Source: an uncultured Oscillospiraceae bacterium
Lineage (GTDB): Bacteria; Bacillota; Clostridia; Oscillospirales; Oscillospiraceae
DNA: 36,739 nt
Assembly: GCA_944386885.1 (NCBI GenBank)
Contig: CALXCU010000121.1
Span: forward strand, 1-36,739
Direction of reading: 5' to 3'
Below, piece by piece: positions 4,730 to 30,492 of the stretch. The position numbers and the translations under genes are program-made. The notes beneath the pieces are model-generated. The model did no database searches, was not told where the DNA came from, and saw nothing but the letters and a program-made list of their open reading frames with translations. The first letter of the stretch is position 1, and every line of letters begins with the position of its first letter.

Positions 4730-5000
4730 AATATAGAGTGCCCTTAAAAATGAAACTCTTAAAAATAGAAAAGCGATCAGAAAATAGTTTTAAGGGAAAA
4801 GGTGCTGCGGGTGAAGCAAGTCCCGGAAGCTTTGTGGACTATTTCCGGTTTGCTCACAGGAAACTGTGCACGCGAACAAAGCGCGGGGCGAAAGGAAGAA
4901 AAAACATATGCTGGTGCCACATGTCTGGATTGTCGAATCTGGCTAAAATATGACTTATAAGTGGGTGTGTTTCTATGCAAGATGAAGTGAGACGATAGGG

Positions 5001-6383
5001 GTGGATTGTGTGGACGGCCTTTTAAACTGGATGAAAATCCGGTATTCTGAGATTGCTCCTCAGATCTCTGCCATCAATCAGGCGATCTGGACCTATGCGG
5101 AACCGTCTGGAGAGGAATACCGGTCGGCTCGCCTGCTGGAACAGACCCTTCGGGACAACGGATTTACCGTAACCGTTGGAGTATGCGGCCACCCCACCGC
5201 CTTTGTGGCGGACTATGGTACGGGGAAGCCGGTGGTGGCCTTCCTGGGAGAATACGATGCGCTGCCCGGCCTGTCTCAGGCCGCCGGCGTACCGGCGCCC
5301 ACCCCCCTGCCGGGCGGCGGCTGTGGACATGGATGCGGCCACTGCGCGCTGGGCAGCGGCTCCCTGGCGGCGGCGCTTCTGGCCCATCAATATCTGGAGG
5401 AGAAGGGATTGCCCGGAACGGTCCGGTATTACGGCTGCTGCAGCGAGGAGACGGACGGCGTCAAACCCTACATGGCCCGGGCAGGGCTCTTTAACGATGT
5501 GGACTGCGTCTTCGCCTGGCACCCCGGCGGCGAGACCGGCGTGCCCAACGTGGCCTTGGCCGCTATGGAGTCCTTCCAAGTCATCTTTACCCAGGATTCA
5601 GAGGATAGGGCAGACCGGACGCTGGAGGCCTGCGAACTGACAAATGTGGCGGTCAATTACCTGCGGGAGCACGTCCCCAGCGGTGTGCGGATGCACTATG
5701 CCTATCTGGATGCCGGCCGGCCGGCCGCTGAAAAGGGGCGCTTTCAGAACAGCCTGGCCTATACGGTGCGGGCCCCCCGGGCCCGGGCGGTGGAAGAGGC
5801 GGCGCAGCGGGTACGCGCCTGTGCTCGGGGCGCGGCGAAGATGACGGGGACCGCCTGCGAAATCCGCCCCCAGAGCCGCTATGCCGACCGGTTTCAGAAT
5901 TCTGTGGTGGCCGCCCTGCTCAGTGAGGCGGCCCAGGCGGTAGGTCCCCCGGCATGGGATGCAGCCGACCAAGCCCTGGCCAGGGCCTTTACCGCCCGCT
6001 ATGACGGGGCGCAGTCCCAGGCGCTGCGAGAGCTGATCCGCCGGAAGTATGGCCCGGCGCGGGAGGAAGAGCGGATGGCCTGCCCGCTGGACAGCGGCGT
6101 GGAGCCCTTTGACCCGGCGGTGTGCCGGTACAACAGCGCCTCCTCTGATGTGGGAGACGTGGGGTATGCCGCCCCCACCGCCAGCATGCGGGTGGCTTGC
6201 GCCGCCCTGGGCACACCGGCCCACTCCTGGTTTATGACCGGGATGATCGGCAGTTCCATCGGAGAAAAAGGGATCGCCTGTGCAGCCCAGATCCTGGCGC
6301 TGGCGGCCATCCGGGTCTTTGAGGAGCCCCGGCTCCTGGCGGGGGCCCAGGAGGAGCGCCTGAGGCGGGTTCGGGGCGGATGA
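5001..6383 (+). CDS. M20 family amidohydrolase (AbgB-like), atypical, lid histidine missing
   Basis: About 460 residues of the M20D/AbgB type (p-aminobenzoyl-glutamate hydrolase subunit B and relatives, metal-dependent amide hydrolases). The metal-site motifs are present: GHGCGH (109-114), the Glu pair (149-150), His174 in WHPG and His408 near the C terminus. The segment that in the next gene reads GVAAHAG in the dimerisation/lid domain is absent. The alignment drops from residue 192 to about 207 with roughly eight residues deleted, so the lid histidine is lost. It may be a specialised partner subunit, an altered-specificity enzyme or partly inactive. The start is uncertain: GTG 5001 lacks a good ribosome site and GTG 5010 is better placed behind AGGGGTGG. 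It is the first gene of the island, 54 bases before its paralogue. Confidence 0.85.
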   Translation: MDCVDGLLNWMKIRYSEIAPQISAINQAIWTYAEPSGEEYRSARLLEQTLRDNGFTVTVGVCGHPTAFVADYGTGKPVVAFLGEYDALPGLSQAAGVPAPTPLPGGGCGHGCGHCALGSGSLAAALLAHQYLEEKGLPGTVRYYGCCSEETDGVKPYMARAGLFNDVDCVFAWHPGGETGVPNVALAAMESFQVIFTQDSEDRADRTLEACELTNVAVNYLREHVPSGVRMHYAYLDAGRPAAEKGRFQNSLAYTVRAPRARAVEEAAQRVRACARGAAKMTGTACEIRPQSRYADRFQNSVVAALLSEAAQAVGPPAWDAADQALARAFTARYDGAQSQALRELIRRKYGPAREEERMACPLDSGVEPFDPAVCRYNSASSDVGDVGYAAPTASMRVACAALGTPAHSWFMTGMIGSSIGEKGIACAAQILALAAIRVFEEPRLLAGAQEERLRRVRGG

Positions 6384-6437
6384 GGCCCGGTGGAGGGCTG
6401 CCAATGGGGAGCAACCAGATACGAAGGAGGAACCATT

Positions 6438-7880
6438 ATGACAAGTGAGTATGCGGCCGGCCTGGTAAAAGAGGCTGTGGACCGTCGGGAAGAGATGCTG
6501 AACGGCCTGAGCGACGATATCTGGAACTATGCGGAAGGGGGATTCCAGGAATTCCGCTCTGTGGAGCGGCTGTGCCAGGCCCTGGAGGCTGAGGGGTTTT
6601 CCATCACCCGGGGGCTGGCGGGGATCCCCACCGCATTCCAGGGCGTATGGGGGAATGGACACCCCGTGGTGGGCCTGCTGGGGGAATTTGACGCCCTGCC
6701 CGGCATGAGCCAGGAGGGGGCCTGCGCCAAGAAACAGGCAGTGACGCCGGGGGGCTACGGCCACGGCTGCGGTCACAACCTCCTGGGGGTCGGGGCGCTG
6801 GCCGCGGCGGTGGCCATCAAGGACTATCTCCAGAACAGCCAGAGGCCCGGCACGGTGATCTACTTTGGAACCCCCGCTGAAGAGGGCGGCGGCGGAAAGA
6901 CCTTCCTGGCCCGGGACGGCGTGTTTGCGGGGGTGGATTTTGTCTATACCTGGCACCCGGGCTCCATCAACCAAATGCGGGCCAATCATATGGCGGCCAC
7001 CCTGTCCAAGACTTACGAATTCCACGGCGTAGCCGCCCACGCGGGCGCCGCCCCCCATCTGGGCCGCAGCGCGCTGGATTCCTGCGAACTGATGAACGTG
7101 GGGTGCAACTACCTGCGGGAACATGTGCCCTCGGACATTCGCTTCCACTACGCCTACCTGGATGCCGGCGGACGGGCGCCCAATATTGTGCAGGACCACG
7201 CGGCGGTAAAATATTTGGCCCGGGGGCCCTACATCCGCCAGGTCATGGAGGTGTTTGAGCGCATTGACGCCATTGCCGAGGGAGCGGCCCTGATGTGCGG
7301 CACCAAAGTGAGCAGCCAGACCGGCGCTGGTTACTCTGAATTCACCCAGAATGTGACTCTGGCCCGGGTGCTGGACCGGGCGCTCCACGAGATTGGGGGC
7401 CCCGTGTGGGATGAGGAGGACTACCGTCTGGCCAAAGCCATGACCGATTCCCTCACCGAGAGCGAGAAGGAGGCCCAGCGGGCCATGATCCTGGAGCGCT
7501 ATGGAGCCGGAGCCCTGGAGGACAAGCTGGCCCACCCTCTGGATACCGTTGTGGGGGACTATACCCCGGAGAAATGTACCTTTGTCTCGGGGGCCACCGA
7601 CGTGGGGGATGTGAGCTTTGTGGTCCCAACGGCCAAACTCAACGTGGCCACCAACGCGCTGGGGACCCAGCTGCACTCCTGGCAGATGGTGGCCCAGGCC
7701 GGCTCGTCCATCGGACGAAAGGGAATGCTGGCGGCGGGGAAGGTAATGGCGCTGGCCGCAATTTATGTCATGGAGGACCCGGCGCTGCTGGAGGAGGCTA
7801 AGACCGAGTTCCAGAACAAGAACGGCGGCGTGTACCACTGCCCGCTGCCGGCGGACGCCGTCCCCCCGAAAGAGATCTGA
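6438..7880 (+). CDS. M20 family amidohydrolase, AbgB-like
   Basis: A 480-residue cytoplasmic M20D peptidase-family amidohydrolase, related to the AbgB subunit and to amino-acid deacylases. All hallmark residues are visible: GHGCGH (108-113), the catalytic/metal Glu148-Glu149 (PAEE), His173 (WHPG), lid-domain His201 (GVAAHAG) and His413 (LHSW). It should hydrolyse an amide bond such as N-acyl or aminobenzoyl amino acid, but the substrate cannot be read from sequence. The start at 6438 is set by AAGGAGG seven bases upstream of the ATG; an earlier GTG at 6390 has none. In E. coli, AbgA and AbgB work as a heterodimer, so pairing with the atypical paralogue just upstream is reasonable (inference). 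Confidence 0.9.
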   Translation: MTSEYAAGLVKEAVDRREEMLNGLSDDIWNYAEGGFQEFRSVERLCQALEAEGFSITRGLAGIPTAFQGVWGNGHPVVGLLGEFDALPGMSQEGACAKKQAVTPGGYGHGCGHNLLGVGALAAAVAIKDYLQNSQRPGTVIYFGTPAEEGGGGKTFLARDGVFAGVDFVYTWHPGSINQMRANHMAATLSKTYEFHGVAAHAGAAPHLGRSALDSCELMNVGCNYLREHVPSDIRFHYAYLDAGGRAPNIVQDHAAVKYLARGPYIRQVMEVFERIDAIAEGAALMCGTKVSSQTGAGYSEFTQNVTLARVLDRALHEIGGPVWDEEDYRLAKAMTDSLTESEKEAQRAMILERYGAGALEDKLAHPLDTVVGDYTPEKCTFVSGATDVGDVSFVVPTAKLNVATNALGTQLHSWQMVAQAGSSIGRKGMLAAGKVMALAAIYVMEDPALLEEAKTEFQNKNGGVYHCPLPADAVPPKEI

Positions 7881-7907
7881 TGCGGCGCGGATTTGGGAGG
7901 TTAAGCT

Positions 7908-8858
7908 ATGCTCAAATATATACTCAAGCGGCTTTTACAGGCCATCCCCACATTTCTCATCATCACCATCGCGGTATTTGTTCTCTCCAACGCGGCGCCG
8001 GGCAGCCCGGTAGACCTGATCAAGGCCGCCGGAGACCTGACGCCGGAGGCGGAGCAAGAGCTGCGGGTACAACTGGGGCTGGATAAGCCGGTGGCCGTAC
8101 GCTATCTGATCTGGCTGGGTGATATGCTCCATGGAGATTTCGGCACCTCGACCCGTACCAACCAGCCGGTGTGGAGCCTGGTGCAGGAGCGCATCGGCCC
8201 CACGCTGGTGCTCACCCTGACCTCGCTGGTGTGTTCCCTGCTCATTGCCATACCGCTGGGCATCATGGCATCCCTGAGACCCTACTCCATATGGGATACA
8301 GTCTCCTCTTTCCTGGCCTTCCTGGGGGCGTCTACGCCGAACTTCTTTGTAGCCTTGGTGGCGCTGTATATTTTTGCAGTCAAGCTGGGCCTGCTGCCCT
8401 CCATGGGCATGTACTCCAGTAATGGCGGAGGATTGGGTGATTTGGCGCTGCATCTGGTGCTGCCGGTATCCATTACGGTCATCCGTATGATGGGTACCTA
8501 CATCAAGCAGACCCGGGGCAGTATGCTGGACGTGATGAACGAGGAGTATGTCAAGACCGCCCGGGCCAAGGGCCTGGGCGAGGGGACGGTGGTCATCAAG
8601 CATATCCTGCGCAACGCGCTCATCCCCATCGTCTCCTGCATCGGCCTGAACATCCCCTATCTGGTGGGCGGCTCTACCGTCACCGAGCAGATCTTTGGCT
8701 GGCCGGGCATGGGGAGCCTGCTGGTGCTGTCCATCAACCAGCGGGACTACAACGTGATCATGGCCATCACCGTGCTCATTGCCGCGGCGGTGTTGGTCGT
8801 CAATCTGCTGATCGACCTTCTCTATGCTTATCTAGATCCCAAGATCCGCCTGGACTGA
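7908..8858 (+). CDS. Peptide-type ABC transporter permease (DppB/OppB family)
   Basis: A 316-residue inner-membrane permease with the N-terminal MLKYILKRLLQAIPTFLIIT segment typical of DppB/OppB, six predicted membrane helices, and the cytoplasmic EAA loop (about residues 205-235, ending ILRNALIPI) that docks with the ATPase subunits. The family imports di- and oligopeptides, nickel, opines and related small molecules. The ribosome site GGGAGG lies seven bases before the ATG. It is followed ten bases later by its partner permease and forms a complete importer with the next four genes. Confidence 0.95.
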   Translation: MLKYILKRLLQAIPTFLIITIAVFVLSNAAPGSPVDLIKAAGDLTPEAEQELRVQLGLDKPVAVRYLIWLGDMLHGDFGTSTRTNQPVWSLVQERIGPTLVLTLTSLVCSLLIAIPLGIMASLRPYSIWDTVSSFLAFLGASTPNFFVALVALYIFAVKLGLLPSMGMYSSNGGGLGDLALHLVLPVSITVIRMMGTYIKQTRGSMLDVMNEEYVKTARAKGLGEGTVVIKHILRNALIPIVSCIGLNIPYLVGGSTVTEQIFGWPGMGSLLVLSINQRDYNVIMAITVLIAAAVLVVNLLIDLLYAYLDPKIRLD

Positions 8859-8873
8859 GAAGGAGGGGTGGAA

Positions 8874-9734
8874 ATGTCGAAAAAAGAGACGAAAAAAGAA
8901 CATTTTCTCTATAACTTTGCCAAGCATAAACTGGCCGTGGCGGCGCTGGTCATCCTGGTGCTGGAGATCTTGGCGGTGATTTTCCTGCCCGTCATAATGG
9001 GGCTGGACCCGGTGACCTCGGACACTTCGGCGTTCAGTGCGCCGCCCGGCGGGGCACATCCCCTTGGCACAGACGACGCGGGGCGGGATCTGCTGGCCCG
9101 CCTGTTGACAGGCGGCCGGGTGTCCATGCTCATCGGCCTGGGGGCCACGCTGGTCAGTGTGGCGGTGGGCCTGCCCCTGGGGCTGGTGGCCGGCTACTAC
9201 CGGGGCAAGCTGGAGACCCTGATTATGCGCGCGGCGGATATCTTCCTCTCCTTCCCCTCCCTGGTGCTCAACTTGGTCATCGTGGCCGTGTTTGGCTCCA
9301 GCGTGGAGCTGCTGATCGTAACCATCGGCGTGCTCCACTGGCCGGCGGTGGCCAAGCTGATTTACGGCAATGTCCTCTCGGTGCGCAGCCGGGAATTCGT
9401 GGAGGCGGAGCGGGCCATTGGCAGCAGCGATGCAAAGATCCTCTTCCGCACGGTGCTGCCCAACTCCATCGCCCCGCTGTGGGTATCCCTGGCTTTCCGC
9501 ATCTCCAACGCCATGCTTACGGAGTCCGCGCTGAGCTTCCTGGGGGCCGGCGTACAGCCGCCGCAGGCCTCCTGGGGCAATATTATCCAGGCCGCCAATA
9601 ACCTCAATGTACTTATGAACCGCTGGTGGCAGTGGATCCCCGCCGGACTGTGCCTGATGCTCACCATCGTGTGTCTCAATTTTGTGGGCGAGGGCATCCG
9701 AGACGCGCTGGATCCCAAAATGAAGCGCCTGTGA
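8874..9734 (+). CDS. Peptide-type ABC transporter permease (DppC/OppC family)
   Basis: A 286-residue permease of the DppC/OppC type. It has a charged N terminus, a first membrane helix at about 20-40, a periplasm-side loop with PLGTDDAGRDLLAR, which is diagnostic for this family, then five more helices and the EAA loop (RAIGSSDAKILFRTVLPNS). The ATG at 8874 is preceded by AAGGAGG at good spacing; a GTG two codons earlier overlaps that site and is less likely. It forms the membrane channel together with the preceding gene. Confidence 0.95.
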   Translation: MSKKETKKEHFLYNFAKHKLAVAALVILVLEILAVIFLPVIMGLDPVTSDTSAFSAPPGGAHPLGTDDAGRDLLARLLTGGRVSMLIGLGATLVSVAVGLPLGLVAGYYRGKLETLIMRAADIFLSFPSLVLNLVIVAVFGSSVELLIVTIGVLHWPAVAKLIYGNVLSVRSREFVEAERAIGSSDAKILFRTVLPNSIAPLWVSLAFRISNAMLTESALSFLGAGVQPPQASWGNIIQAANNLNVLMNRWWQWIPAGLCLMLTIVCLNFVGEGIRDALDPKMKRL

Positions 9735-9751
9735 GAAAGGAGGGGCCATCC

Positions 9752-10732
9752 ATGTCTGAAGTGATTTTAGAGGTTGAGAACCTCCAGGTGAAATTCCGCG
9801 TCAGCAAACGCGACATGCTGACGGCCATTCAGGACGTCTCCTTTCGGGTCCATAAAAAGGAGATCCTGGGTATCGTGGGCGAGTCGGGCTGCGGCAAGAG
9901 CGTGACCGCCAATACCATCCTGCGCCTGCTCCCGTCCCAGACCAGCCAGATTTCCAACGGCAAGATCCTCTTCCATGGCCAGGACCTGGTCCAGCTCTCC
10001 AACAAAGAGATGCGGCAGATCCGGGGGGACAAGATCTCCATGATTTTTCAGGAGCCCATGACCTCCCTGAATCCGGTCTATCGCATTGGAGACCAGATGG
10101 TGGAGATGTACCGGGCGAAAAATAAGCATATGAGCAAAAAAGAGGCCTGGCAAAAGGCCATACATATGCTGGAGATGGTGGATATTCCCTCTCCGGAACA
10201 GCGGATGAAGGACTACCCCCACCAGCTCTCCGGCGGTATGCGCCAGCGGGTGATGATCGCCATGGCCCTCTCGGCCCGGCCGGAGCTGCTCATCGCCGAC
10301 GAGCCGACCACCGCCCTGGATGTGACGATTCAGGCCCAGGTGCTCCAGCTGATGAAGCAGCTCCAGGAGGAGATGGACACCGCCATCCTCCTCATCACCC
10401 ACGACATGGGCGTGGTGGCCGAAATGGCCGACACGGTCATGGTAATGTACGCCGGCGAGGTGGTGGAGTACGCCGATGTAACGACCATTTTCAACCGGCC
10501 CCTGCACCCCTATACCAGGGGACTGCTGGCCTCCCTGACCCGGGCGGACCGGGATATGGGGCGCCTGAGCAGCATTGAGGGCACGGTCCCGCCCCTGAGC
10601 CAGATGCCGGAGGGCTGCCGGTTCAACACCCGCTGTCCGGATTGCCAGGCGGCCTGCAAGGAGAAAGCGCCGGCGCTGCTGGAGGTAGAGCCCAACCACA
10701 TGGTGCGCTGCCTCCGGTGCGGGAAAGTTTGA
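9752..10732 (+). CDS. ABC transporter ATPase (DppD/OppD family)
   Basis: A 326-residue ATP-binding subunit. Walker A GESGCGKS is at residues 43-50, the signature is LSGGMRQR, Walker B is [12 protein letters not shown], and the switch His is in ITHDMG. The C-terminal Oligo_HPY region contains four Cys residues (near 287-324) of the type that binds an iron-sulfur cluster in some DppD proteins. The ATG at 9752 has AAAGGAGG upstream; the longer open frame before it has no family similarity. The stop TGA overlaps an ATG in the next frame, so translation is probably coupled to the second ATPase. Confidence 0.95.
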
Positions 10733-10746
10733 TGGGAGGTGAGCGC

Positions 10747-11727
10747 ATGGCAGAGCCTTTGATGAAAATCCGGGGGCTAAAAAAACAGTTCCGGATAGGC
10801 CATGGCAAGAAAGCCCCGGTTCTCCGGGCGGTGGATGGGATTGATCTGGATGTATATACCGGCGAGACGGTGGGTCTGGTGGGCGAGTCGGGGTGTGGAA
10901 AATCCACCTTCGGCAAGGCCATCATCAACCTCAACCCCCCTACCGAGGGGAGCGTCGCCTACCAGGGCACGGAGATCGCCCACTACAACACCCGCCAAAT
11001 GCGTCCGCTGCGGAAAGAACTGCAATTCATTTTCCAGGACCCCTATGCCTCCCTGGACCCCCGCAGAACCATTTTTGACCTGGTCAAAGCGCCGCTGGAC
11101 GCCTTCCGCATCGGCACCGAGCAGGAGCGGGAGGAACAGGTGGAGACCATCCTCGGGTTTGTGGGCATGGACCAGTTCCAGTTCCGCAAATTTCCCCATG
11201 AGCTCTCCGGCGGACAGCGCCAGCGGGTGGTCATCGCCCGGACCATGGTCCTGAAGCCCAAATTCATCGTCTGCGACGAGCCCGTGTCTGCCCTGGACGT
11301 GTCGGTGCGGGCCCAGGTGCTCAACCTGATGAAAGATGCCCAGAGCAAGCTGAACGTATCCTATCTCTTTGTCTCCCACGACATGAGCACCGTGCGCTAC
11401 CTGTGCGACAAGGTAGCCGTCATGTACCTGGGCCGCCTGGTGGAGTTTGGCAGCCGGCACGATATTTTTGAGCACCCCCTTCACCCCTATACCAAGGCCC
11501 TGCTCTCGGCGGTGCCCATCCCCGACGTGGGGGTCAAGCGGGAGCGCATCCTGCTGGAAGGGGACGTGCCGAGCCCACTGCATCCCCCGGCCGGGTGCCG
11601 GTTCAGCAACCGCTGCCCCTACCGGCAGGAGGGCTGTTCCCACATCTCCGGTGACCTGATTCAGGTGAATGAGACCCACGCGGTGTCCTGTCCCTATGCA
11701 GCCCGGCCGGAAGCGCCGACGAAATAG
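10747..11727 (+). CDS. ABC transporter ATPase (DppF/OppF family)
   Basis: A 326-residue partner ATPase. Walker [10 protein letters not shown] is at about 46-54, the signature is LSGGQRQRV, Walker B is [12 protein letters not shown], and the switch region is VSHDMSTV. It also ends in an Oligo_HPY region ([12 protein letters not shown], with CRFSNRCP). The start at 10747 is preceded by GGGAGGTGAG. An ATG at 10732 overlaps the previous stop, but the ribosome site would then lie inside the gene. It completes the heterodimeric motor of the importer. Confidence 0.95.
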
Positions 11728-11755
11728 ACCCCACCCACAACAAAAAGGAGGAGCA

Positions 11756-13399
11756 ATGATGAAGACCAACACCAAAAAGAGAGCCCTTTGCCTGCTGCTT
11801 GCGGTTCTGATGCTGGCCACGGTACTGGCTGGGTGCGGAGGAGGAAACCCCTCCTCCAGTGAGACGGGAAGTCCCAGCGCTGGAAACAACGGCGAGGAGA
11901 TCGTCATCAACATGGCCATGAACTCCGGATGGACGGATTTGATTCCGTACAATGGGGCAACTGGCGGAAATTACAGCATTCTCGTCCTGTCTTTGATTTA
12001 TGACCGCCTGTTTGCACTGGACGACAACGGCGATCCCATTCCCCGCGGCGCGGACAGCTGGGAGATCTCGGAGGACAAGATGTCCTGCACCTTCTACCTG
12101 AACCAGAACGCCAAGTGGCATGACGGGGAGCCTGTCACCGCCGAGGACTATGTGTTTGCGGCCGAAATGATTACCGACCCGGACTGCGGCGTCACCTCCA
12201 AGAGCCACTACTATATTTTAACCGGCACCGATACCAGCGGTAATGCCGACGGTACTCCTCTGGGCGTAGAAGCACTGGATGAATACACCGTGAAGTACAC
12301 CTTTGATGAACCCGTCAGCGAGAGCAGCACCTTTACGCTGTATATTTTCTCTTACATCCCCCTGCCCAAGCACCTGCTGGAGGACGTGGACCCCGCCGAC
12401 TATCTGACTCTGGACCTGTGGAACCACCCCATCGGCAGCGGCCCTATGAAATTTGAGAGCACCATCGCCGGCAGCGAGCTGGTCCTGACCTCGAATGAGG
12501 ACTATCATCTGGGCGCCCCCAAATTTGACAAGATGCGTATCCAGGTCATGAATGCCGACAGCTCTGTGGCCGCCATGCTGGCCGGGGACATCGATGTCAT
12601 GTACCCTGCCCCCACGAAAGATAATTTTGCCACCCTCGAAGCCTCCGGCACCCTCTCCTGCTACTATATGCCCTACCCAACCTCCCAACGCTGCATCTAT
12701 ATTAACAATCACCTTATTACCGACAGCCGGGTCCGCCGGGCCATGGATATGGCCATTGACCGGGAGGCCATCGCCGCTATGCTGGAGGGTGAGCCCATCG
12801 AGACGCCCGTACCGCTGGCCAGCAAATTCCTAGATCCCGACGTGACCTACACCTATGACCCGGAGGCGGCCAAGGCCCTGCTGGACGAGGCCATTGCCGA
12901 CGGCGCCTACGATCCAAGCGTCCCCATTAATCTGGTCACCGGGACTGCCGCCGAGGGCGAGAACATCTGCAGCCTGGTACAACAAAATCTGGCCGCCATC
13001 GGCATGAATATTGAGGTGCAGAAGATGGAGGCCGCCACTATGTTCGCCGGCTTCTATGACGACACCGTTGCTATGGGCACGATTACCAAGCCTGCCAGTC
13101 TGAACCCCATGTATATGCGCACCGCCCTGACCAATAAACGTACCTCTTACCTACAGTGGCCCACCGAGCTTTGGGACGATATTGCCATGAAGTTTATCAA
13201 TGCCAAGAGTGAAGAGGAAGAGGTTGAGGTCATGAAGGAGTTCCAGGAGACCTGGGTGGAGCAGGTGCCCGGCCTGTTCATGGCCGCCACCTATGAGCAC
13301 TATGCCTACAGCCCCCGCTTGGGCGACGGCGAGAGCCTGGGCCTGGAGTACTCTAACCTGGGTTCCACTCCGGTATGGCGTTGGAATGTGAAGGCCTGA
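11756..13399 (+). CDS. Extracellular solute-binding lipoprotein (SBP_bac_5 family)
   Basis: A 547-residue substrate-binding protein of the DppA/OppA family. Residues 1-26 are a lipoprotein signal peptide with lipobox LAGC; Cys27 would be lipidated and anchor it to the outer face of the membrane. A Gly/Ser-rich linker follows, then the SBP_bac_5 fold (AKWHDGEPVTAEDYVF, HPIGSGPMKF, DSRVRRAMDMAIDREAI). It determines what the importer takes up. The family covers peptides, opines, nickel chelates, sugars and glutathione, so the ligand is open. AAGGAGG precedes two adjacent ATG codons (11756 and 11759); either may start. Confidence 0.95.
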   Translation: MMKTNTKKRALCLLLAVLMLATVLAGCGGGNPSSSETGSPSAGNNGEEIVINMAMNSGWTDLIPYNGATGGNYSILVLSLIYDRLFALDDNGDPIPRGADSWEISEDKMSCTFYLNQNAKWHDGEPVTAEDYVFAAEMITDPDCGVTSKSHYYILTGTDTSGNADGTPLGVEALDEYTVKYTFDEPVSESSTFTLYIFSYIPLPKHLLEDVDPADYLTLDLWNHPIGSGPMKFESTIAGSELVLTSNEDYHLGAPKFDKMRIQVMNADSSVAAMLAGDIDVMYPAPTKDNFATLEASGTLSCYYMPYPTSQRCIYINNHLITDSRVRRAMDMAIDREAIAAMLEGEPIETPVPLASKFLDPDVTYTYDPEAAKALLDEAIADGAYDPSVPINLVTGTAAEGENICSLVQQNLAAIGMNIEVQKMEAATMFAGFYDDTVAMGTITKPASLNPMYMRTALTNKRTSYLQWPTELWDDIAMKFINAKSEEEEVEVMKEFQETWVEQVPGLFMAATYEHYAYSPRLGDGESLGLEYSNLGSTPVWRWNVKA

Positions 13400-13421
13400 T
13401 CGCAAAACAAGGAGGCGTTTT

Positions 13422-14636
13422 ATGACCCAGACCATCACGGAGGGGCACATTACGGACATCCCCCTGTCGGAGGTCCTCGCCCGGCGGGCGCGGGTCCTCC
13501 AGCGGGTGGCGGAGAGCGGGTGCCGTGGGATGGTGTTCTTTTCGGCGGCATCCCAGACCTATCTGACTGGCACGGCCCTCATCGCCACCGAGCGGCCCAT
13601 TGTGCTGATCCTGAAGGAGGACGGTCACACCTCCCTGCTGGTTCCCCGGCTGGAGCTGGAGCACGCCAGGGACTGCGCCAAGGGGGTGGACCGCCTGGAG
13701 TGGTACCCGGAGTACCCCTCCCTGAAGCACCCCATGGCCTACCTGGCCGATCTGCTCTCCAGCCTGGACCTGGACCGGGGGCACGTCGCGGCCGACAGCG
13801 ACGGCTATGGTCCGCACTTCGGCTACCGGGGCCCCAAGCTCAGCGGCATGTGCGGGGATATGGAGCTCACCCTCCTGCCCCGTCTGGTGGAGGAGCTCAA
13901 GGCCATTAAGAGCCCCTTTGACCTGACCCTGCTCCGGGAGAGCGCGCGCTGGGCCAACCTGGCCCACGCGCTCCTCCAGGAGTATACCAAGGAAGGCCTG
14001 GGCGAGATCGAGGTCAGCGACCGGGCCTCCCACGAGGCCACCCAGGCCATGCTCAAGGCCCTGGGGCCGGATTTCCGGCCCAACCACGGCACCAATGCCC
14101 ACGCGGTCTACCGGGGGCAGATTGGGCCCAATTCCTACTTTCCCCACTCCGTGACCGCCAACCGGGTGTTTCGCCGGGGGGATACCCTGGTCACCGGGGC
14201 CACCGCCCCGGTGCTGGGGTGCAACACGGAGCTGGAACGGGTGCTCTTCTTGGGTGAACCCCGCCAGGAGCAGGTCCTCTTCTACGAGCACGCGCTGGCC
14301 ATCCAGGACATCGCCCTGCACACCATCCGCCCCGGCATCCCCTGCGCCCAGGTGGACCAGGCGGTGATGCGCTACTATGAGGAGAACGACCTGATGCTCT
14401 ACTGGCGGCACCACACCGGCCACAGCGTGGGCTTCGCCAAGCACGAGAGCCCCTTTTTCGACCAGAACGACCAGACCATCATCCAGCCGGGCATGGTCTT
14501 TACCATTGAGCCCGGACTGTATGTGGCAGGGCTGGGGGGTTTCCGGCTCTCGGACACGGTGGCGGTCACCGAGACGGGAGTGGAAAAAATCACCTATTAT
14601 CCCACACAGATCGACCAGATCATCTGCGACCCATAG
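13422..14636 (+). CDS. M24 'pita-bread' family protein, creatinase/ectoine-hydrolase type, metal ligands altered
   Basis: A 404-residue protein with an N-terminal creatinase-type domain (1-150) and a C-terminal M24 domain (155-400). Of the usual five metal ligands only His334 (GHSVG) and Glu363 (TIEPG) are kept. The first Asp position is Gly259 (VTGATAP), the second is Glu270 (GCNTELER) and the last Glu is Ser377 (FRLSDT). Creatinase and some relatives also lack metal ligands and hydrolyse amidino C-N bonds, and the GCNTELER stretch resembles creatinase more than aminopeptidase P. A non-metal amidinohydrolase or amide hydrolase is therefore likelier than a proline peptidase. The start is the ATG at 13422 behind AAGGAGG. 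It lies directly after the transporter genes. Confidence 0.85.
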   Translation: MTQTITEGHITDIPLSEVLARRARVLQRVAESGCRGMVFFSAASQTYLTGTALIATERPIVLILKEDGHTSLLVPRLELEHARDCAKGVDRLEWYPEYPSLKHPMAYLADLLSSLDLDRGHVAADSDGYGPHFGYRGPKLSGMCGDMELTLLPRLVEELKAIKSPFDLTLLRESARWANLAHALLQEYTKEGLGEIEVSDRASHEATQAMLKALGPDFRPNHGTNAHAVYRGQIGPNSYFPHSVTANRVFRRGDTLVTGATAPVLGCNTELERVLFLGEPRQEQVLFYEHALAIQDIALHTIRPGIPCAQVDQAVMRYYEENDLMLYWRHHTGHSVGFAKHESPFFDQNDQTIIQPGMVFTIEPGLYVAGLGGFRLSDTVAVTETGVEKITYYPTQIDQIICDP

Positions 14637-14664
14637 CCGCAGCAGAAAACAGATGAGGTGAACC

Positions 14665-15831: not shown

Positions 15832-15862
15832 ACGGCCCGGCGGGGCGGAAGGAGGAGATGAC

Positions 15863-17248: not shown

Positions 17249-17271
17249 AACGCAACTGCGAGGTGTTTGAT

Positions 17272-18672: not shown

Positions 18673-18676
18673 AAAA

Positions 18677-19741: not shown

Positions 19742-19773
19742 AAGAGCGAGTTTGAGAAAAAGGAGGACGCGAT

Positions 19774-20538: not shown

Positions 20539-20554
20539 CAAGGAGGAAACGCCC

Positions 20555-21172: not shown

Positions 21173-21182
21173 TGCGCAAAAA

Positions 21183-21206
21183 GCAGCTGCCCGGGTGGGC
21201 GGCTGC
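21183..21206 (+). other. Intercistronic hairpin
   Basis: A 10-bp stem containing one G-U pair (21183-21192 with 21197-21206) with a 4-base loop lies between the SnoaL-like gene and the next gene. No T run follows, so it is more likely an mRNA processing or stability element than a terminator. Confidence 0.5.
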
Positions 21207-21232
21207 TGCGGTTTGAAAGGAGGATAAACGCC

Positions 21233-22015
21233 ATGATCAATGTAGGTCTTTTGGGAAGCGGCCGGTTGGGCCATGTCATCGCCGGGGCCATCGCCCAGGG
21301 AAAGGTACCGGAGTGCCGGCTGGTGGGGGTGCTGGGGCGGTCCAAGGAACGCTTATTTCCCATGGAGGAACAGTACGGCTGCCGGGCCTGCCAGAGCCCG
21401 GAGGAACTGCTGGCCCTGGAGCCCCGCTACATGGTTGAGGCGGCCACCCCCCAGGCCCTTCAGGAACACGCCATCCCCTTTCTGGAGGCCGGATGCAGCG
21501 TCATTTGCCTGTCTATGGGGGCGCTCTACGACCAGAAGTTCTATGATGCCGCCGCCCGGGCGGCCCGGGCGGGCGGAAGCAAGCTCTACCTGGCTTCGGG
21601 CGTACTGGGCGGCTTCGATCTGGCGGCCACCCTGTCTATGATGGGAAAGCTGAAGGGGACCCTCATCAAGTACAAATATCCGAACGATTCCGGCCGGTGT
21701 CCACCGGCGTTGATGGAGCTGCCCGACCAATTTGAGGGCAGCGCCCGGGAGGGCTATCAGCTCTCGCCGGCCCATTTGAACGTGGCGGTGGCCGCGGCGC
21801 TGGCCTGCGGCGGGCTGGATCAGACCCGCCTGCGGATCGAGCCGATCACGGACGAGCCCTCCGACAGCTTTGGGCTGGATCTGGAGGGAGAATTCGCCGG
21901 AGCGGCCGTGCGCATCCGGCAGGGAGGCTTTGGCGGGCCCTCGCAAGGGACGGCACTGGCCGCCTGGAGCGCCGTAGCACTGCTCAAGCGGCTGACGTCT
22001 CCCATTACGTTCTAA
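21233..22015 (+). CDS. Aspartate-dehydrogenase-like NAD(P)-binding protein
   Basis: A 260-residue protein with a Rossmann motif (LLGSGRLGH, 6-14) and the C-terminal domain of L-aspartate dehydrogenase (ASGVLGGFDLAATLS, about 121-135, and SPAHLNVAVAAALA). In classical enzymes of this family an N-x-H-E motif followed by an NPKTS loop binds aspartate. Here the equivalent region reads PSDSFGLDL and GGPSQGT, so the histidine and the loop are not preserved. A related imine or amino-acid substrate other than aspartate is likely (inference). The start is the ATG at 21233 behind AAAGGAGG. It may cooperate with the opine-dehydrogenase-like enzyme. Confidence 0.8.
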   Translation: MINVGLLGSGRLGHVIAGAIAQGKVPECRLVGVLGRSKERLFPMEEQYGCRACQSPEELLALEPRYMVEAATPQALQEHAIPFLEAGCSVICLSMGALYDQKFYDAAARAARAGGSKLYLASGVLGGFDLAATLSMMGKLKGTLIKYKYPNDSGRCPPALMELPDQFEGSAREGYQLSPAHLNVAVAAALACGGLDQTRLRIEPITDEPSDSFGLDLEGEFAGAAVRIRQGGFGGPSQGTALAAWSAVALLKRLTSPITF

Positions 22016-22066
22016 AGAAAGCGGAATTGAAATACAACTGAAATTTTAAAATGCGAGGTGTAAAAA

Positions 22067-23467
22067 TTGACCGAGTATACCAAGAATTTGGCCCGATACA
22101 TTGCCAACGTCCGGTACGAGGACATCCCCGCTGAGACCATCGACCGCGCCAAAAAGCTGACCATGCACTGTGTCGGCGCGACTTTGGCCGCGCTGCCCAG
22201 CCCCAGCGTCCGCTACGCAATAAACACCGCCCGGGACACTGTGGGCGAACAGGCGGCGCTCATGTCCACCGCCTGGGGCCTGCCGGGTAAGATGCCCATG
22301 AACGGCGCCATTTTCATCAACTCCACCGGCGCAGACACCCTGGATTGGGAGGACTGCTCCTGGACGGGCCACCCCACCGCCGGGTTCGTGCCCGTGGGCA
22401 TGGCGGTGGCCGAGGCCCTCAACAAGCCGGGGCGGGATTACCTGACCGCAATCATCAGCGGGTTTGAGATCTATCAGCGGGTGGCCGGCTCCATCCAGCC
22501 GCCCCCCGATTTTGACATCGTGAAAAACGGCTGGGGCCTGTGCTCTTGGCAGATCTGGGCCTGCTCGATGCCCGCGGGCAAGCTGTTGGAGTGTAATGAA
22601 GAGCAGTTTAATCTCCTCATGGGGGCCACCGCCTGCGAGACGCCGGTCATCGACACCATCATCCACAAGCAGATGTCCGATTTTTACCACCTGCAATTCG
22701 GTTTTACGGGGATGAACGGCACCATGCTGGCCCGGATGGCCAAGCGGGATGAGCTGGACAACATGTACGACATCTTCGATATCGAAGGGGGCTATGCCTT
22801 CATGATGCAGCGGGGCGACCATCCGGAGTGGCTGGAGCGCAATGTGGGCAGCGAGTACATGTTCAACGAGATCCTCTTCAAGCACTGGCCGGCCAACATG
22901 TGGATTCAGACTCCGCTGGACTGCCTGGACCAAATGAAGCGGGAATACGGTTTCCAGGCAGGGGACATCCAGTCCATCGAAATCACGCCCGGCTTCCAGT
23001 TCCGGGACGGCTACCGGCCGGAGGGCTACCGCAGCGTCAAGGACGGCCAGTTCTCCATCCCCTACTGCCTGGCGGCCTACCTGCTCAAAGGAGAGGCCGG
23101 GCCCAACTGGTTTGATGAAAAGCACCTGAACGACCCGGAACTGCTGGACATGGCCTCCCGGGTACACCTGGACAAGGAGCAGGTCCTGCCCCTAAAGCAG
23201 TGCTTCAATATCTTTACCGGCGGGTCCTTCCCCAAAGTGGAGATGACCATTACCCTGAAGGACGGCGCAGTCCTCCGGGGGGAGATGCAGTTCCCCAAGG
23301 GCCATCCCCGCAACCCCTTCGACTGGGCAGACAGCGAGAAGACCTTCCGCACCGGCGCCCGGGTGGCCGGCCTCACCCAGGAGAAAACCGAGCGCTTTAT
23401 GGCTCTGTGCAGGGATCTGGAGCACTTGGAGGATATGGCCCAGCTGGCCGAGTGCCTTCAGGGCTAA
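22067..23467 (+). CDS. MmgE/PrpD family protein, copy 2
   Basis: A 466-residue paralogue of the copy at 17272, with the same DTLDWEDCSWTGHPTAGF segment and no net length change. Translation starts at TTG 22067 behind GCGAGGTG, the same ribosome site as copy 1. The last 209 bases before the C-terminal variable end differ from copy 1 at only six positions, while the first 120 bases agree at roughly two thirds. It is the last gene of the island; six bases separate its stop from the convergent regulator gene. The AT-rich 50-base gap before it (22016-22066, with ATTTTAAAAT) could hold an internal promoter, but no clear hexamers are visible. Confidence 0.9.
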   Translation: MTEYTKNLARYIANVRYEDIPAETIDRAKKLTMHCVGATLAALPSPSVRYAINTARDTVGEQAALMSTAWGLPGKMPMNGAIFINSTGADTLDWEDCSWTGHPTAGFVPVGMAVAEALNKPGRDYLTAIISGFEIYQRVAGSIQPPPDFDIVKNGWGLCSWQIWACSMPAGKLLECNEEQFNLLMGATACETPVIDTIIHKQMSDFYHLQFGFTGMNGTMLARMAKRDELDNMYDIFDIEGGYAFMMQRGDHPEWLERNVGSEYMFNEILFKHWPANMWIQTPLDCLDQMKREYGFQAGDIQSIEITPGFQFRDGYRPEGYRSVKDGQFSIPYCLAAYLLKGEAGPNWFDEKHLNDPELLDMASRVHLDKEQVLPLKQCFNIFTGGSFPKVEMTITLKDGAVLRGEMQFPKGHPRNPFDWADSEKTFRTGARVAGLTQEKTERFMALCRDLEHLEDMAQLAECLQG

Positions 23468-23473
23468 CAGAGT

Positions 23474-24640: not shown

Positions 24641-24707
24641 CGCATGCAACGCCTTCTTTTGAAAAACCCGCGCCCAAGGGCATATGAGGAAAGGAAACTA
24701 TTTATTT

Positions 24708-24736
24708 ATTTTAGCACAGCCGCAAAGGGTCCACAA
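24708..24736 (-). promoter_or_regulatory. Sigma-A-type promoter of the regulator gene
   Basis: On the minus strand TTGTGG (24731-24736) and TAAAAT (24708-24713) are separated by exactly 17 bases, with a TG one base before the -10 (extended -10). It lies 67 bases before the ATG at 24640. Confidence 0.55.
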
Positions 24737-24820
24737 CGGGTTTTTATTGATAAAAGCAATGGAAAATATTGAAATGCCGGTCCCATCCGCATCGCGCGGG
24801 GGTAAAAGAGGAGAAAACGT

Positions 24821-26092
24821 ATGGGCAAATATGCGATCATTGGGTTTGGATGTGCCGGTTATCACGCGGCAAAGGCCCTGCGGGAGCGGGCACCGGAGAG
24901 CCGGATCCACGTCTATTCCGACACCGGAGAGGGGCCGGCCAACCCTATGCTGACCACCTATTATGTGGCAGGAAAAATTTCCAGAGAAGCGCTGTTCCCC
25001 TTGGGCGGGCAGGCGGAGATCGCCCGGGCCTTAGACTTGGAGCTCCATGCCTGCGCGCCGGTCCAGCGAGTCTGGGCTAGGGAACATGTGGTGGAGCTGG
25101 CGGATGGCTGGCGGGAGAATTACGACGGCATTGTGCTGGCTACCGGTTCCCATGCCCTGGTCCCGCCCATTCCGGGCCGGCCGGAAAAGGACGTCTATGT
25201 GATGCGTACGCCAGGGGATGCCGACGCCCTCCTGAAGCGAATCAAGCGGGGAATTTCCTCCGCCCTGGTGATCGGCGCCTCCTGGGTTGGAATTAAGGTG
25301 GCGGAGGCCCTGTATGCCCATCAAGTTCCTACGGTGATTGCGGATATGGCGCCCCGTATTTTTCCGACGGCTACCCTGCCCGAGGTGGCGGAGGAGATCC
25401 ACACCCGGCTGGAGACCATGGGGATCGGTCTGAAATTCGGCTGCGGTGTCAGCGCCATGGACCGGAGTCCCGCAGGGATTCTCTCCCGGTTCAGCGACGG
25501 GAGCGAGCTGCAGTCGGAGATTGTGGTTCTCTGCCTGGGCGTCCGGGCGGCGGTGGAATGCCTGGACCGGGAGGAGATCCAAATCGGCCGGGCGGTTCAA
25601 GTCAACGAGCGGATGGAGACCAGCGTATCGGGAGTTTATGCGGCGGGGGACTGCTGCGAAGCGCGGGAGCTGCTGACCGGCCAGTGGATGGCGGTCAACC
25701 TGTGGGCCAACGCCGGGATGCAGGGCCGCATCGCGGGGTGCAATCTGGCGGGCGGAGATGAGGTTTATCAGGGCAATCTGCTGCACAATATCACCCACGC
25801 GCTGGGCATGGATTTCATCGGGATTGGGGACAACCGGGCAGAGGGCCGGCGGCTGACTTACCGGGCCCCAGAGGGCTGGCGGCTGGACCTGGTGTGCCGG
25901 GAGGGACGGCCGGTGTGTGTCAACCTCTTGGGCAATGAGGGGCTGTCCGGGCCGCTGAAGGCGGTTCTGCTCAAGCAGACAAAGGGAGGACCGGCGGCGC
26001 TGAGTACCGAGGAATCCGTCACACTGACGCGGGCCGGAATGCCGCCGGAAATCATCCGAACACTGGGAGGAGCAAAGTATGCTGACGCTTGA
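24821..26092 (+). CDS. FAD-dependent pyridine nucleotide oxidoreductase
   Basis: A 423-residue flavoprotein of the NirB/rubredoxin-reductase/NADH-oxidase type. It has an FAD-binding GFGCAG at 8-13, the GIVLATGSHALVPP linker, the NAD-binding Rossmann segment VIGASWVGIKVAEAL (about 148-162) and the second FAD motif GVYAAGDC. There is no CxxxxC redox pair, so it should pass electrons to a protein partner. The start is the ATG at 24821 behind AGAGGAG. The gene overlaps the molybdoenzyme gene by 14 bases, which suggests it delivers reducing power to, or takes it from, that enzyme through the ferredoxin. Confidence 0.9.
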   Translation: MGKYAIIGFGCAGYHAAKALRERAPESRIHVYSDTGEGPANPMLTTYYVAGKISREALFPLGGQAEIARALDLELHACAPVQRVWAREHVVELADGWRENYDGIVLATGSHALVPPIPGRPEKDVYVMRTPGDADALLKRIKRGISSALVIGASWVGIKVAEALYAHQVPTVIADMAPRIFPTATLPEVAEEIHTRLETMGIGLKFGCGVSAMDRSPAGILSRFSDGSELQSEIVVLCLGVRAAVECLDREEIQIGRAVQVNERMETSVSGVYAAGDCCEARELLTGQWMAVNLWANAGMQGRIAGCNLAGGDEVYQGNLLHNITHALGMDFIGIGDNRAEGRRLTYRAPEGWRLDLVCREGRPVCVNLLGNEGLSGPLKAVLLKQTKGGPAALSTEESVTLTRAGMPPEIIRTLGGAKYADA

Positions 26093-28739: not shown

Positions 28740-28782
28740 CCGGCTGTACCTGGGACCCATCAACTGTTTTAAGGAGGAATCT

Positions 28783-30492
28783 ATGGAACCATGGACCTTT
28801 TCCGGGCTGCCCTATGTGCGGCCTGATTTTCAATTGGTCAAGGCCCGTCTGACGCAGGTGGAGGCGGACATCCGGGCCGCAGACAGCGCGGCACAAGTAT
28901 GGGAGGCTATCCAGGAGTTCGACGCAGAAGACCGCGCCCTCTCCACCCAAACCACCATCGCCCATATCCGCCATACGCTGGACACTGCAGACCCGTTTTA
29001 TGAGCGGGAAGAGACCGCCCTCCAGGACGGTCTCTTCTCCGTCACGCCTCTGACGCTGGCCATCTATCGCGCGCTGAGGGAGAGCCCCTTCCGGGGGGAG
29101 ATTGAGACGAGGCTTGGAAAGCAGTATTTCGTACAGATGGAGATTCAGCAAAAGCGCTTCTGTGAGGCAAATATCCCCCTCATGCGCCGGGAAAACCAGC
29201 TTAAGGACGAGTACCAGAAGATCATGGCTTCCGCCGCCATCCCCTTTGAGGGGAAAACCCTCAACCTCTATGGGCTCCGAAGGTACTTTGAGGGGGAGAA
29301 TCGCGCCCGGCGGGCCGCCGCCTTCCGGGCCTACTCCGACTTTTACCACGCCCAAGAGAGGCGCTTAGAGGAAATCTGGGATGAACTGATCGCCATCCGC
29401 AACCAGATGGGGCGTAACCTGGGGTTTGAAACCTATATCCCGCTGGGGTATCTCCAGCAGCGGCGGGCCGACTACGGGCCGGAAGAGGTGGCCGCCTTCC
29501 GGGAACAGGTACGTACGGTGCTGGTCCCACTGTGCGAGGAGCTCTACCGGGCCCAGGCGAAGCGGCTGGGCGTGGAGCGGGTCATGGCCTATGACGAGAA
29601 GCAGATCTTCCCCGACGGGAACGCCGCCCCAGTGGGAGACGAGGCCGCGCTGGTGGAGGCGGCCCGGCGGATGTACCACGATTTGAGTCCGGAGACGGCG
29701 GAGTTTATCGATTTTATGATCGGCCATCAGCTCATGGACCTGACCAACCGCCCCGGGAAGGCGGCGGCCGGGTACATGACCAGCCTGCCGGTATTAAAGG
29801 CGCCCTTTGTCTTTTCCTGCTTCAACGGAACCACCGGCGACGTACAGGTTCTGACCCACGAGATGGGCCATGCGTTCGCGGGCTACCTGACCATGCGCGC
29901 CCAGCCGGTCAAGGACTTTTTTGCCAAATCCACTGACATCTCCGAGATCCACTCTATGTCCATGGAGCAGTTTTCCTATCCCTACGCAGAGCTGTTCTTT
30001 GGCGCAGGTGCGGATAAATTCCGCTTCGCCCATCTCCAGGAGGCCATTACCTTTGTGCCCTTCGGCGTGGCCATTGATGAGTTCCAGCATATTTGCTATA
30101 GCCGCCCGGAGCTGACGGCCAAAGAGCGGACCTGGGAGTGGCACAAGCTGGAGCAGAAATATATGCCCTGGCGGACTTATGACCCGGAGGACGGGTTTAT
30201 GGCCCGGGGCGGCTATTGGTATCATAAGCTGCATATTTTCCTCTACCCCTTTTATTACATCAACTATACCCTGACCACCATGGGCGCCATGGAATTCAAG
30301 CAGAGGATGGCCCAGGACCCCCAGGGGACCTGGCAGGACTATCTGCGCCTGTGCCGCTCGGGCGGGAGCCGGGGGTATTTTGACACGCTGCGGTATGCGG
30401 GCCTGTCGATTCCATTCGAAGCCGGTGCAGTGGAACGCTGTACCCGCTATGCCCGGGAGATTCTGCTGCGGGAGGCGGAGCGGTACGCCTAA
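28783..30492 (+). CDS. M3 family oligoendopeptidase (PepF-like)
   Basis: A 569-residue cytoplasmic zinc metallopeptidase. The catalytic motif HEMGH is at 359-363 (VLTHEMGHAF), and the third zinc ligand is Glu388 in ISEIHSMSMEQF. This is the normal length for the M3B group, which cuts short peptides of about 6-20 residues. The start is the ATG at 28783 behind TAAGGAGG. It is the last gene of the redox operon; in that context it may process imported peptides, but its link to the redox genes is not obvious. Confidence 0.9.
   Translation: MEPWTFSGLPYVRPDFQLVKARLTQVEADIRAADSAAQVWEAIQEFDAEDRALSTQTTIAHIRHTLDTADPFYEREETALQDGLFSVTPLTLAIYRALRESPFRGEIETRLGKQYFVQMEIQQKRFCEANIPLMRRENQLKDEYQKIMASAAIPFEGKTLNLYGLRRYFEGENRARRAAAFRAYSDFYHAQERRLEEIWDELIAIRNQMGRNLGFETYIPLGYLQQRRADYGPEEVAAFREQVRTVLVPLCEELYRAQAKRLGVERVMAYDEKQIFPDGNAAPVGDEAALVEAARRMYHDLSPETAEFIDFMIGHQLMDLTNRPGKAAAGYMTSLPVLKAPFVFSCFNGTTGDVQVLTHEMGHAFAGYLTMRAQPVKDFFAKSTDISEIHSMSMEQFSYPYAELFFGAGADKFRFAHLQEAITFVPFGVAIDEFQHICYSRPELTAKERTWEWHKLEQKYMPWRTYDPEDGFMARGGYWYHKLHIFLYPFYYINYTLTTMGAMEFKQRMAQDPQGTWQDYLRLCRSGGSRGYFDTLRYAGLSIPFEAGAVERCTRYAREILLREAERYA

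Follow-up and report, generated by a model that had tools for sequence, protein, structure and literature searches.

We analysed a window of 36,739 nucleotides, contig C121 of the 2.38-Mb draft genome (97.5% complete) of an uncultured Oscillospiraceae bacterium, in which positions 5001-30492 hold an island of 21 genes. The whole island is conserved in another genus of the same family, and six of its gene families recur together at other sites as a core, namely a PrpD protein, an EutA-like two-cysteine isomerase, an opine-dehydrogenase-family protein (ODH), a flavoprotein, a molybdoenzyme and an iron-sulphur (FeS) protein. We tentatively favour the reading, without calling it probable, that the island is one catabolic unit for a secondary-amine polycarboxylate, opine- or iminodisuccinate-like, which would be imported as a conjugate. 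The island brings known enzyme families together in a new way.

Families were assigned by Pfam and NCBIfam profile scans and gene starts were placed by ribosome-binding sites (RBS). Sixteen co-directional genes (5001-23467), spaced by 4-60 bp and mostly with a visible RBS, are followed by an opposite-strand CdaR-type regulator and then by four more genes, as follows.

5001-6383, +, M20 amidohydrolase a (M20a); PF01546; TIGR01891 163 bits, cut-off 154
6390-7880, +, M20 amidohydrolase b (M20b); PF01546; TIGR01891 236 bits
7908-8858, +, Opp-type permease 1; PF00528
8868-9734, +, Opp-type permease 2; PF00528, PF12911
9752-10732, +, Opp-type ATPase 1; PF00005, PF08352; OppD best; start ATG at 9752 by RBS
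10747-11727, +, Opp-type ATPase 2; PF00005, PF08352; start by RBS
11756-13399, +, SBP_bac_5 substrate-binding protein (SBP); PF00496 232 bits; start by RBS
13422-14636, +, M24 dipeptidase-like hydrolase; PF00557, PF01321
14665-15831, +, amidohydrolase; PF07969, PF01979
15863-17248, +, MATE exporter; PF01554; TIGR00797 210 bits, over the cut-off
17272-18672, +, PrpD1, MmgE/PrpD subfamily with a DWEDC..xGHP motif; PF03972, PF19305
18677-19741, +, ODH; PF02317
19774-20538, +, EutA-like two-cysteine isomerase, Asp/Glu racemase superfamily; PF17645
20555-21172, +, SnoaL-like protein; PF13577
21233-22015, +, aspartate-dehydrogenase (AspDH)-like protein with an altered catalytic stretch; PF03447, PF01958
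22067-23467, +, PrpD2, 73% identical to PrpD1; PF03972
23474-24649, -, CdaR/PucR-type regulator with a diacid-recognition domain; PF05651, PF13556
24650-24820, 171-bp intergenic region separating the regulator from the divergently oriented redox genes
24821-26092, +, FAD/NAD(P) oxidoreductase (Pyr_redox_2), the flavoprotein; PF07992
26079-28220, +, dimethyl sulfoxide (DMSO)-reductase-family molybdoenzyme; PF04879, PF00384, PF01568
28221-28739, +, DmsB-like 4Fe-4S protein; PF13247; TIGR02951 122 bits, cut-off 214
28783-30492, +, M3-family oligoendopeptidase of 569 aa; PF01432; TIGR02289 505 bits, cut-off 442

The original prediction, made from the sequence alone, had described fourteen co-directional genes with short gaps; the direction and the short gaps hold, while the count is sixteen. 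Every family that it named was recovered at its place by the Pfam and NCBIfam scans, and the SnoaL-like and M3 genes inside the interval had been left out of its gene list. M20a and M20b are 42% identical and, as an unequal pair of neighbours from a single M20 subfamily, resemble AbgA/AbgB, the p-aminobenzoyl-glutamate hydrolase with two M20 subunits. They differ from that system in their Opp-type importer, no AbgT-type transporter being among the families found. The M24 protein is matched best by PepQ (115 bits, cut-off 630), with ectoine hydrolase at 43 bits.

Conserved gene order had been set beforehand as a test of the claim. It is found in G766, a genome assembled as one contig and belonging to a different genus of the family: all 21 genes are present there in the same order and relative orientation with 48-88% amino-acid identity. 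Identities are 64% for M20a, 74% for M20b, 88 and 86% for the permeases, 86 and 81% for the ATPases, 76% for the SBP, 81% for M24, 82% for the amidohydrolase, 73% for MATE, 78% for PrpD1, 72% for ODH, 71% for the EutA-like protein, 86% for the SnoaL-like protein, 48% for the AspDH-like protein, 86% for PrpD2, 72% for CdaR, 72% for the flavoprotein, 79% for the molybdoenzyme, 72% for the FeS protein and 76% for M3. The stretch common to both genomes starts with the first gene of the interval and ends with its last, which bears out the claim of a single conserved unit. The spacing between the FeS and M3 genes is about 0.7 kb in G766 and could give room for a small extra gene. Second codon positions are 0.69-0.95 identical between the two islands and third positions 0.50-0.72 (20 genes, M3 excluded); the genes have therefore been kept by selection. 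Since RpoB of the window's genome and of G766 is 87% identical over 844 aa (tblastn), and most island genes are less alike than this (the two best reach 88 and 86%), nothing indicates that the island was recently passed between the two genomes, as judged with one housekeeping gene. At E 1e-3, nothing in the 46-kb stretch of G766 matches five flank proteins of the window (two SLH, S8, MacB and HlyD), and the sole flank DNA match is 195 bases inside an ABC ATPase gene. These flanks (36-4661 and 30615-36450) encode an HlyD-ABC-MacB exporter, proteins with SLH domains and a subtilase that carries a copper-amine-oxidase N-terminal domain.

Sites related to the island were located by searches with ODH, the molybdoenzyme, M20b, the amidohydrolase and PrpD, and 28 were compared, the window included; they were collected through core genes, so the sample is not unbiased. 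The comparison is one of presence and absence, as some copy numbers above one are double counts (G005, EutA in G766, several molybdoenzymes). Many open reading frames left without annotation at the loci are antisense shadows. The full six-family core is present at 15 of the 21 sites that have a PrpD match of at least 200 bits, and at these 15 the flavoprotein, molybdoenzyme and FeS genes stand with the PrpD, ODH and EutA genes, in agreement with the earlier view that the redox operon belongs to the unit. Three of the incomplete sites (C105, C136 and C117) are fragments of the window's own genome running to contig ends; C105 (L033) and C136 (L115) seem to be the halves of a single DASS-type cluster, and C117 (L041) holds another copy. 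G718:C4 has five of the six families on an 8.8-kb contig. On G402:C107, a contig of 7.8 kb, only PrpD and ODH are present, and this PrpD carries the motif DWNDM and lies outside the DWEDC subfamily. The true exception, on a longer contig, is G780:C56 (L161, 8939-13529), where a DWEDC-subfamily PrpD is the sole core gene and lies amid genes of a TRAP transporter, which suggests that this subfamily can function outside the core.

Controls were drawn from 40 loci fetched around ODH matches; L071, L072 and L110 were counted as sites and the remaining 37, a part of the ODH matches listed, served as generic-ODH controls. At the thresholds of the site comparison, none of the 37 contains a PrpD, EutA, flavoprotein, molybdoenzyme or FeS member, none carries the DWEDC motif and one (L096) has an ornithine cyclodeaminase (OCD) protein. 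With a looser threshold, control L092 shows a flavoprotein match of 27% and control L086 a CdaR match of 22%. A contig scan of the named relatives gave 12 loci with distant ODH relatives, and the one examined (L044) has no other core gene, as is also the case for L042 and L043, which stand outside the site and control counts. The six-family core is rare. Of 398 genomes from the phylum, 9 have a relative of the molybdoenzyme at E <=1e-150, and of 120 from the family, 7 have a member of the PrpD subfamily (the window's genome included in both counts); the PrpD subfamily also occurs in three of the nine genomes of G425's family. In plasmid records the PrpD relatives are less than 30% identical, among the matches listed (20 of 543), and the ODH relatives less than 29% (18 of 18 records); a PHROGs search with PrpD1 gave no match.

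What surrounds the core changes from site to site. An importer is present at each of the 15 complete sites and is of four kinds: SBP5/Opp at two (the window and G766), DASS-like at ten, an amino-acid permease at two (G002:C19 and G004:C50) and TRAP at one (G034). The scores behind the DASS-like label are weak: PF03600 is barely over its cut-off in L034 and L032, no Pfam model matches L030, L037 and L071, and NCBIfam dass gives 38-40 bits (cut-off 199); these proteins are 30-82% identical to one another. Neither the M20a/M20b pair nor a relative of the window's MATE protein was seen at the 13 other complete core sites. The peptide importer and the hydrolases belong to the window's version as accessories and are not part of the core. 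An imine enzyme, OCD or AspDH-like, is near 12 of the 15 complete cores: the AspDH-like form in the window and G766, and an OCD/mu-crystallin protein at 10 of the 13 others, with none seen at G002:C38, G004:C104 and G034.

The link between the importer block and the redox genes is seen independently of the window in a partial copy, G002:C101, which has an SBP5, M20a, M20b, two permeases, two ATPases and a second, shorter SBP5 frame, followed by molybdoenzyme and FeS genes. At the same locus (L137, 368-15605) a second, different pair of molybdoenzyme and FeS genes lies divergently in front, and thus two such pairs flank the Opp and M20 block. In G004:C75 (L138, 9605-11169) the M20b gene is interrupted, importer genes beyond the permeases were not detected and an M3 relative is present; this copy is perhaps decaying.

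The AlphaFold model of PrpD1 (mean predicted local distance difference test, pLDDT, 88.5) has the MmgE/PrpD fold, with Foldseek probability 1.00 to 2hp0/2hp3 and 6r6u and a template-modelling (TM) score of 0.82/0.85 to 2hp0, iminodisuccinate epimerase. Its nearest structure is the epimerase by TM-score and human cis-aconitate decarboxylase by E-value. Fourteen aligned PrpD sequences share D90, LDWEDC (92-97), TGHP (100-103), K272 and N277, and in a wider set Cys97 and Asn277 occur in 20 of 20 and K272 in 19 of 20. D93, H102 and K272 align with D93, H103 and K272 of cis-aconitate decarboxylase. The likeness to the characterised members (2hp0/2hp3, 6r6u, methylsuccinate isomerase) thus lies in the fold and these three aligned residues, whereas the window's PrpD is about 22% identical to them and differs in its DWEDC motif, Cys97, Asn277 and the absence of a lysine at 203-207. 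In a 2025 study of methylsuccinate isomerase (PMC12290011), two lysines and several histidines are described as conserved in the MmgE/PrpD family, the substrates of characterised members all share a 1,4-dicarboxylate, and homologues are counted in 19.2% of GTDB species, most of them uncharacterised. The family-wide carboxylate-binding set with two lysines is not found in the present subfamily, which keeps one (K272) together with H102. Codons 400-440 of PrpD1 and PrpD2 (about 18472-18591 and 23267-23386) have 97% DNA identity as against 56-87% in other blocks, which looks like recent gene conversion.

ODH contains the Octopine_DH domain and is nearest, among solved structures, to N-(1-D-carboxylethyl)-L-norvaline dehydrogenase (PDB 1bg6, 1.9e-32), which it matches over nearly its full length. 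Its His199 aligns with a histidine of 1bg6 and is invariant in 10 of 10 sequences, as expected of a 1bg6-type opine dehydrogenase. The relationship is nonetheless distant, and the module members themselves are 31-55% identical to the window's ODH. The enzyme previously called maleate-isomerase-like belongs to the Asp/Glu racemase superfamily. It scores best with arylmalonate decarboxylase (AMDase), at 111 bits for a cut-off of 225, and with EutA, at 101 bits for a cut-off of 318. It carries both active-site cysteines of racemases and maleate isomerases, Cys75 and Cys188, invariant in 10 of 10. According to PMC4996985, AMDases carry Gly74 where the racemases of the superfamily have the second cysteine. 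Because this cysteine replaces Gly74, an AMDase is ruled out and the protein fits the racemases and isomerases.

The protein first described as aspartate-dehydrogenase-like does have the domains of that family. It scores 104 bits with L-aspartate dehydrogenase (cut-off 267) and lacks the NIHEI stretch of A. fulgidus AspDH, whose histidine we take to be catalytic; a canonical L-aspartate dehydrogenase is thereby ruled out. At other sites its place near the core is held by the OCD proteins, which resemble SbnB and the OCD/mu-crystallin enzymes (4m54) as well as BhcD, iminosuccinate reductase, with scores below every cut-off. Based on two scanned proteins from other sites, SbnB comes second among the family matches (118-168 bits, cut-off 327) and BhcD reaches 59-97 bits (cut-off 500). 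SbnB is described in PMC9485241 as an NAD+ enzyme for the hydrolysis of the secondary amine ACEGA, with 2-oxoglutarate and L-DAP as products.

Together, the flavoprotein, FeS protein and molybdoenzyme resemble the subunits of formate dehydrogenases and of assimilatory nitrate reductase NasBC, a cytosolic NADH-FAD-molybdenum system. The molybdoenzyme itself is far below the cut-offs of both (304 bits with formate dehydrogenase alpha, cut-off 666; 181 bits with NasC, cut-off 1100). Its Cys155 aligns with the cysteine or selenocysteine molybdenum ligand of three formate dehydrogenases and is shared by all rows of the alignment, 11 of 11, which represent 10 genes (one of them in two pieces). All three formate dehydrogenases have a histidine after the ligand, whereas none of the aligned rows has one next to Cys155; with the low score, this rules out a formate dehydrogenase. 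Distant relatives with an in-frame TGA (G320:C1:476131-478212 and G366:C1:76570-78651) are possibly selenocysteine formate dehydrogenases. A relative from a genome of another bacterial family, G266:C134 (L120, 7876-18961), has an aminotransferase on one side and an Opp importer with an M17 aminopeptidase on the other, and the rest of the core was not seen at that locus; its neighbourhood agrees with peptide-derived substrates for this clade of molybdoenzymes and possibly represents another peptide-linked use of it. Other relatives stand beside TRAP or MFS transporters (G362, G428). C136 of the window's own genome has a MobA-like gene between its FeS and OCD genes (L115, 11341-11982), and MoaA is on the same contig as a module copy in G002:C16 (L128, near 3832-4209); molybdenum cofactor supply may travel with the module. 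Molybdopterin synthesis (PF06463) was found in 4 of 4 genomes tested. The hosts of the core are probably anaerobic.

On these grounds the following route may be envisaged. The Opp-type ABC importer would take up a peptide or N-acyl conjugate, which M20a/M20b, M24, the amidohydrolase and M3 would cleave to release an unusual amino-dicarboxylate. PrpD1 and PrpD2 would invert or dehydrate the carbon beside a carboxylate, in the manner of iminodisuccinate epimerase, and the two-cysteine EutA-like enzyme would racemise or isomerise. ODH, working in the oxidative direction, would split the secondary amine into an amino acid and a 2-oxo acid, and the imine enzyme (AspDH-like here, OCD/SbnB-like elsewhere) would process the leftover imine or amino acid. 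The NAD(P)H-FAD-FeS-molybdenum complex, presumably cytosolic, would catalyse a two-electron reaction, which is most likely a reduction; the CdaR-type regulator may sense a diacid, and MATE may serve overflow or product export. At the DASS-like or TRAP sites the substrate would probably enter as the free carboxylate. An N-linked carboxylate is proposed because 1bg6, iminodisuccinate epimerase and SbnB, relatives of the island and core enzymes, act on N-linked dicarboxylates. The original prediction had an amide- or amidine-containing compound converted to a dicarboxylate; the families found point more to a substrate that is already an N-linked di- or polycarboxylate. As the PrpD, AspDH-like and molybdenum proteins each miss canonical catalytic signatures, new specificities are likely.

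Several observations weigh against this proposal. None of the three N-linked relatives is close enough for substrate transfer, and for two of them another relative scores better. One is cis-aconitate decarboxylase, which outranks the epimerase by E-value in structure-model and profile searches alike (profile scores of 135 and 103 bits); the other is alanine dehydrogenase, the best match of the OCD proteins at 122-185 bits (cut-off 409). With the residue roles and numbering that we assume for the decarboxylase (Thr97, Lys207, His277), the PrpD subfamily has Cys in place of Thr97 and Asn in place of His277 in 20 of 20. No lysine was found among these 20 at positions 203-207, where Lys207 aligns beside a two-residue gap, though some members have one nearby (201 in the window's PrpD2, near 215 in others). 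Iminodisuccinate-like binding is therefore not assured. The NIHEI stretch is replaced in both the window's AspDH-like protein and that of G766. Generic ODH homologues occur in 113 of the 398 genomes and frequently at unrelated sites, and the complete 21-gene island was seen in two genomes only, those of the window and G766.

A different substrate would remove the need for amine chemistry altogether. The core might degrade a plain or branched 1,4-dicarboxylate or a tricarboxylate (methylsuccinate-, aconitate- or hydroxyaspartate-like), ODH acting as a 2-hydroxyacid-type dehydrogenase and the peptidases feeding amino acids. The DASS-like, TRAP and diacid-sensor parts would suit any dicarboxylate. 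Also in favour are the PrpD profile scores, higher with the decarboxylase than with the epimerase, and a PrpD family whose known substrates have, according to PMC12290011, only the 1,4-dicarboxylate in common. The presence of ODH in 15 of 15 complete cores, with an imine enzyme near 12, points to C-N chemistry, and we hold this explanation unlikely, though deserving of serious attention. We consider it quite improbable that the island handles a conjugate of an aromatic or phenolic acid with an amino acid, of the hippurate or indole-acetyl-aspartate type, with M20a/M20b cutting the amide, the molybdenum complex dehydroxylating the acyl part and the remainder handling the amino acid. Both M20 proteins are indeed over the cut-off of the amidohydrolase subfamily, which includes hippurate and indoleacetic acid-amino-acid hydrolases. 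Gut bacteria also have catechol dehydroxylases of the DMSO-reductase family, as reported in PMC11574389. However, among the complete cores the M20 pair was seen only in the two SBP5/Opp versions, no aromatic-pathway family was found in the island by the Pfam scans, and catechol dehydroxylases are absent from the solved structures listed for the molybdoenzyme.

The part list of the island also resembles the cnt system. An opine-type metallophore, made and recycled by a racemase-like EutA, ODH, MATE and an SBP_bac_5 importer as in staphylopine systems, is very unlikely all the same. ATPase 1 gives 263 bits with CntF but the cut-off is 385, and OppD scores higher (368 bits, itself under its cut-off); the SBP gives 64 bits with CntA against a cut-off of 800. 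Nicotianamine synthase (PF03059) is absent from 4 of 4 genomes, three of them drafts, by a model that may not cover CntL, and four C-N hydrolases, an M3 peptidase and a diacid-sensor regulator suit breakdown. That the MATE protein was seen, among complete cores, only in the window and G766 counts against a metallophore and also against an exported specialised metabolite made from amino acids, to which we give very little probability. MATE exporters, SnoaL-like proteins and imine reductases do occur in specialised-metabolite clusters, but the Pfam scans found no synthetase or ligase family in the island, and a complete importer with five hydrolases fits such a cluster poorly. Lastly, a variant of ectoine or hydroxyectoine utilisation (Eut/Doe) could draw on the EutA-like, M24 and M20 members in the window and on the OCD relatives of EutC at other sites. 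Here every score is far below its curated cut-off (EutA 101/318, ectoine hydrolase 43/613, DoeB2 48/550, EutC 102/472), so that the EutA, ectoine hydrolase and deacetylase of the pathway are not recognised, and we know of no role for ODH, PrpD or the molybdenum complex in it; this explanation has hardly any probability left.

For the regulation of the proposed catabolic island, the non-coding scans gave little. The element GCTAAAATAT lies upstream of M20a (window 4661-5000), is found upstream of M20a in G766 too and could be a promoter element. A shared operator was sought between the region upstream of M20a and the CdaR-flavoprotein intergenic region: no common 14-mer (<=2 mismatches) was found in the window, and the same comparison in G766 gave a single weak match (two overlapping rows). 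Two scans returned 0 promoter-like sites where 2.4 were expected and 8 where 5.0 were expected, and 6 terminator-like sites against 7.2 and 16 against 13.6. No Rfam family reaches its gathering score in the window.

The statement that no described pathway has this gene set stands for the open-access literature, among the matches listed. No paper there was found on a gene cluster of PrpD, opine dehydrogenase and molybdopterin enzyme, nor on three or more together of maleate isomerase, PrpD, ornithine cyclodeaminase, opine dehydrogenase, aspartate dehydrogenase and molybdopterin oxidoreductase. Among the open-access titles listed for iminodisuccinate, epimerase and PrpD and for anaerobic opine catabolism there was no matching system. 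It is possible, if rather doubtful, that the core represents a modular pathway not previously described, in which a new PrpD subfamily with a cysteine in the active-site loop, ODH, a two-cysteine isomerase and a cytosolic, NAD(P)H-dependent molybdenum reductase would act on natural secondary-amine polycarboxylates of an opine- or chelator-like kind, with varying importers and hydrolases adapting the core either to free acids or to peptide and N-acyl conjugates.

The core links widely annotated but poorly characterised enzyme families in one recurrent unit and so offers a way to their substrate. As importers are exchanged around a fixed core, one solved case would aid the annotation of a whole series of clusters. 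If the substrate is indeed an opine- or chelator-like acid, the island would show the fate of such compounds in the habitats of these bacteria and would add a molybdenum-dependent step to amino-carboxylate breakdown.

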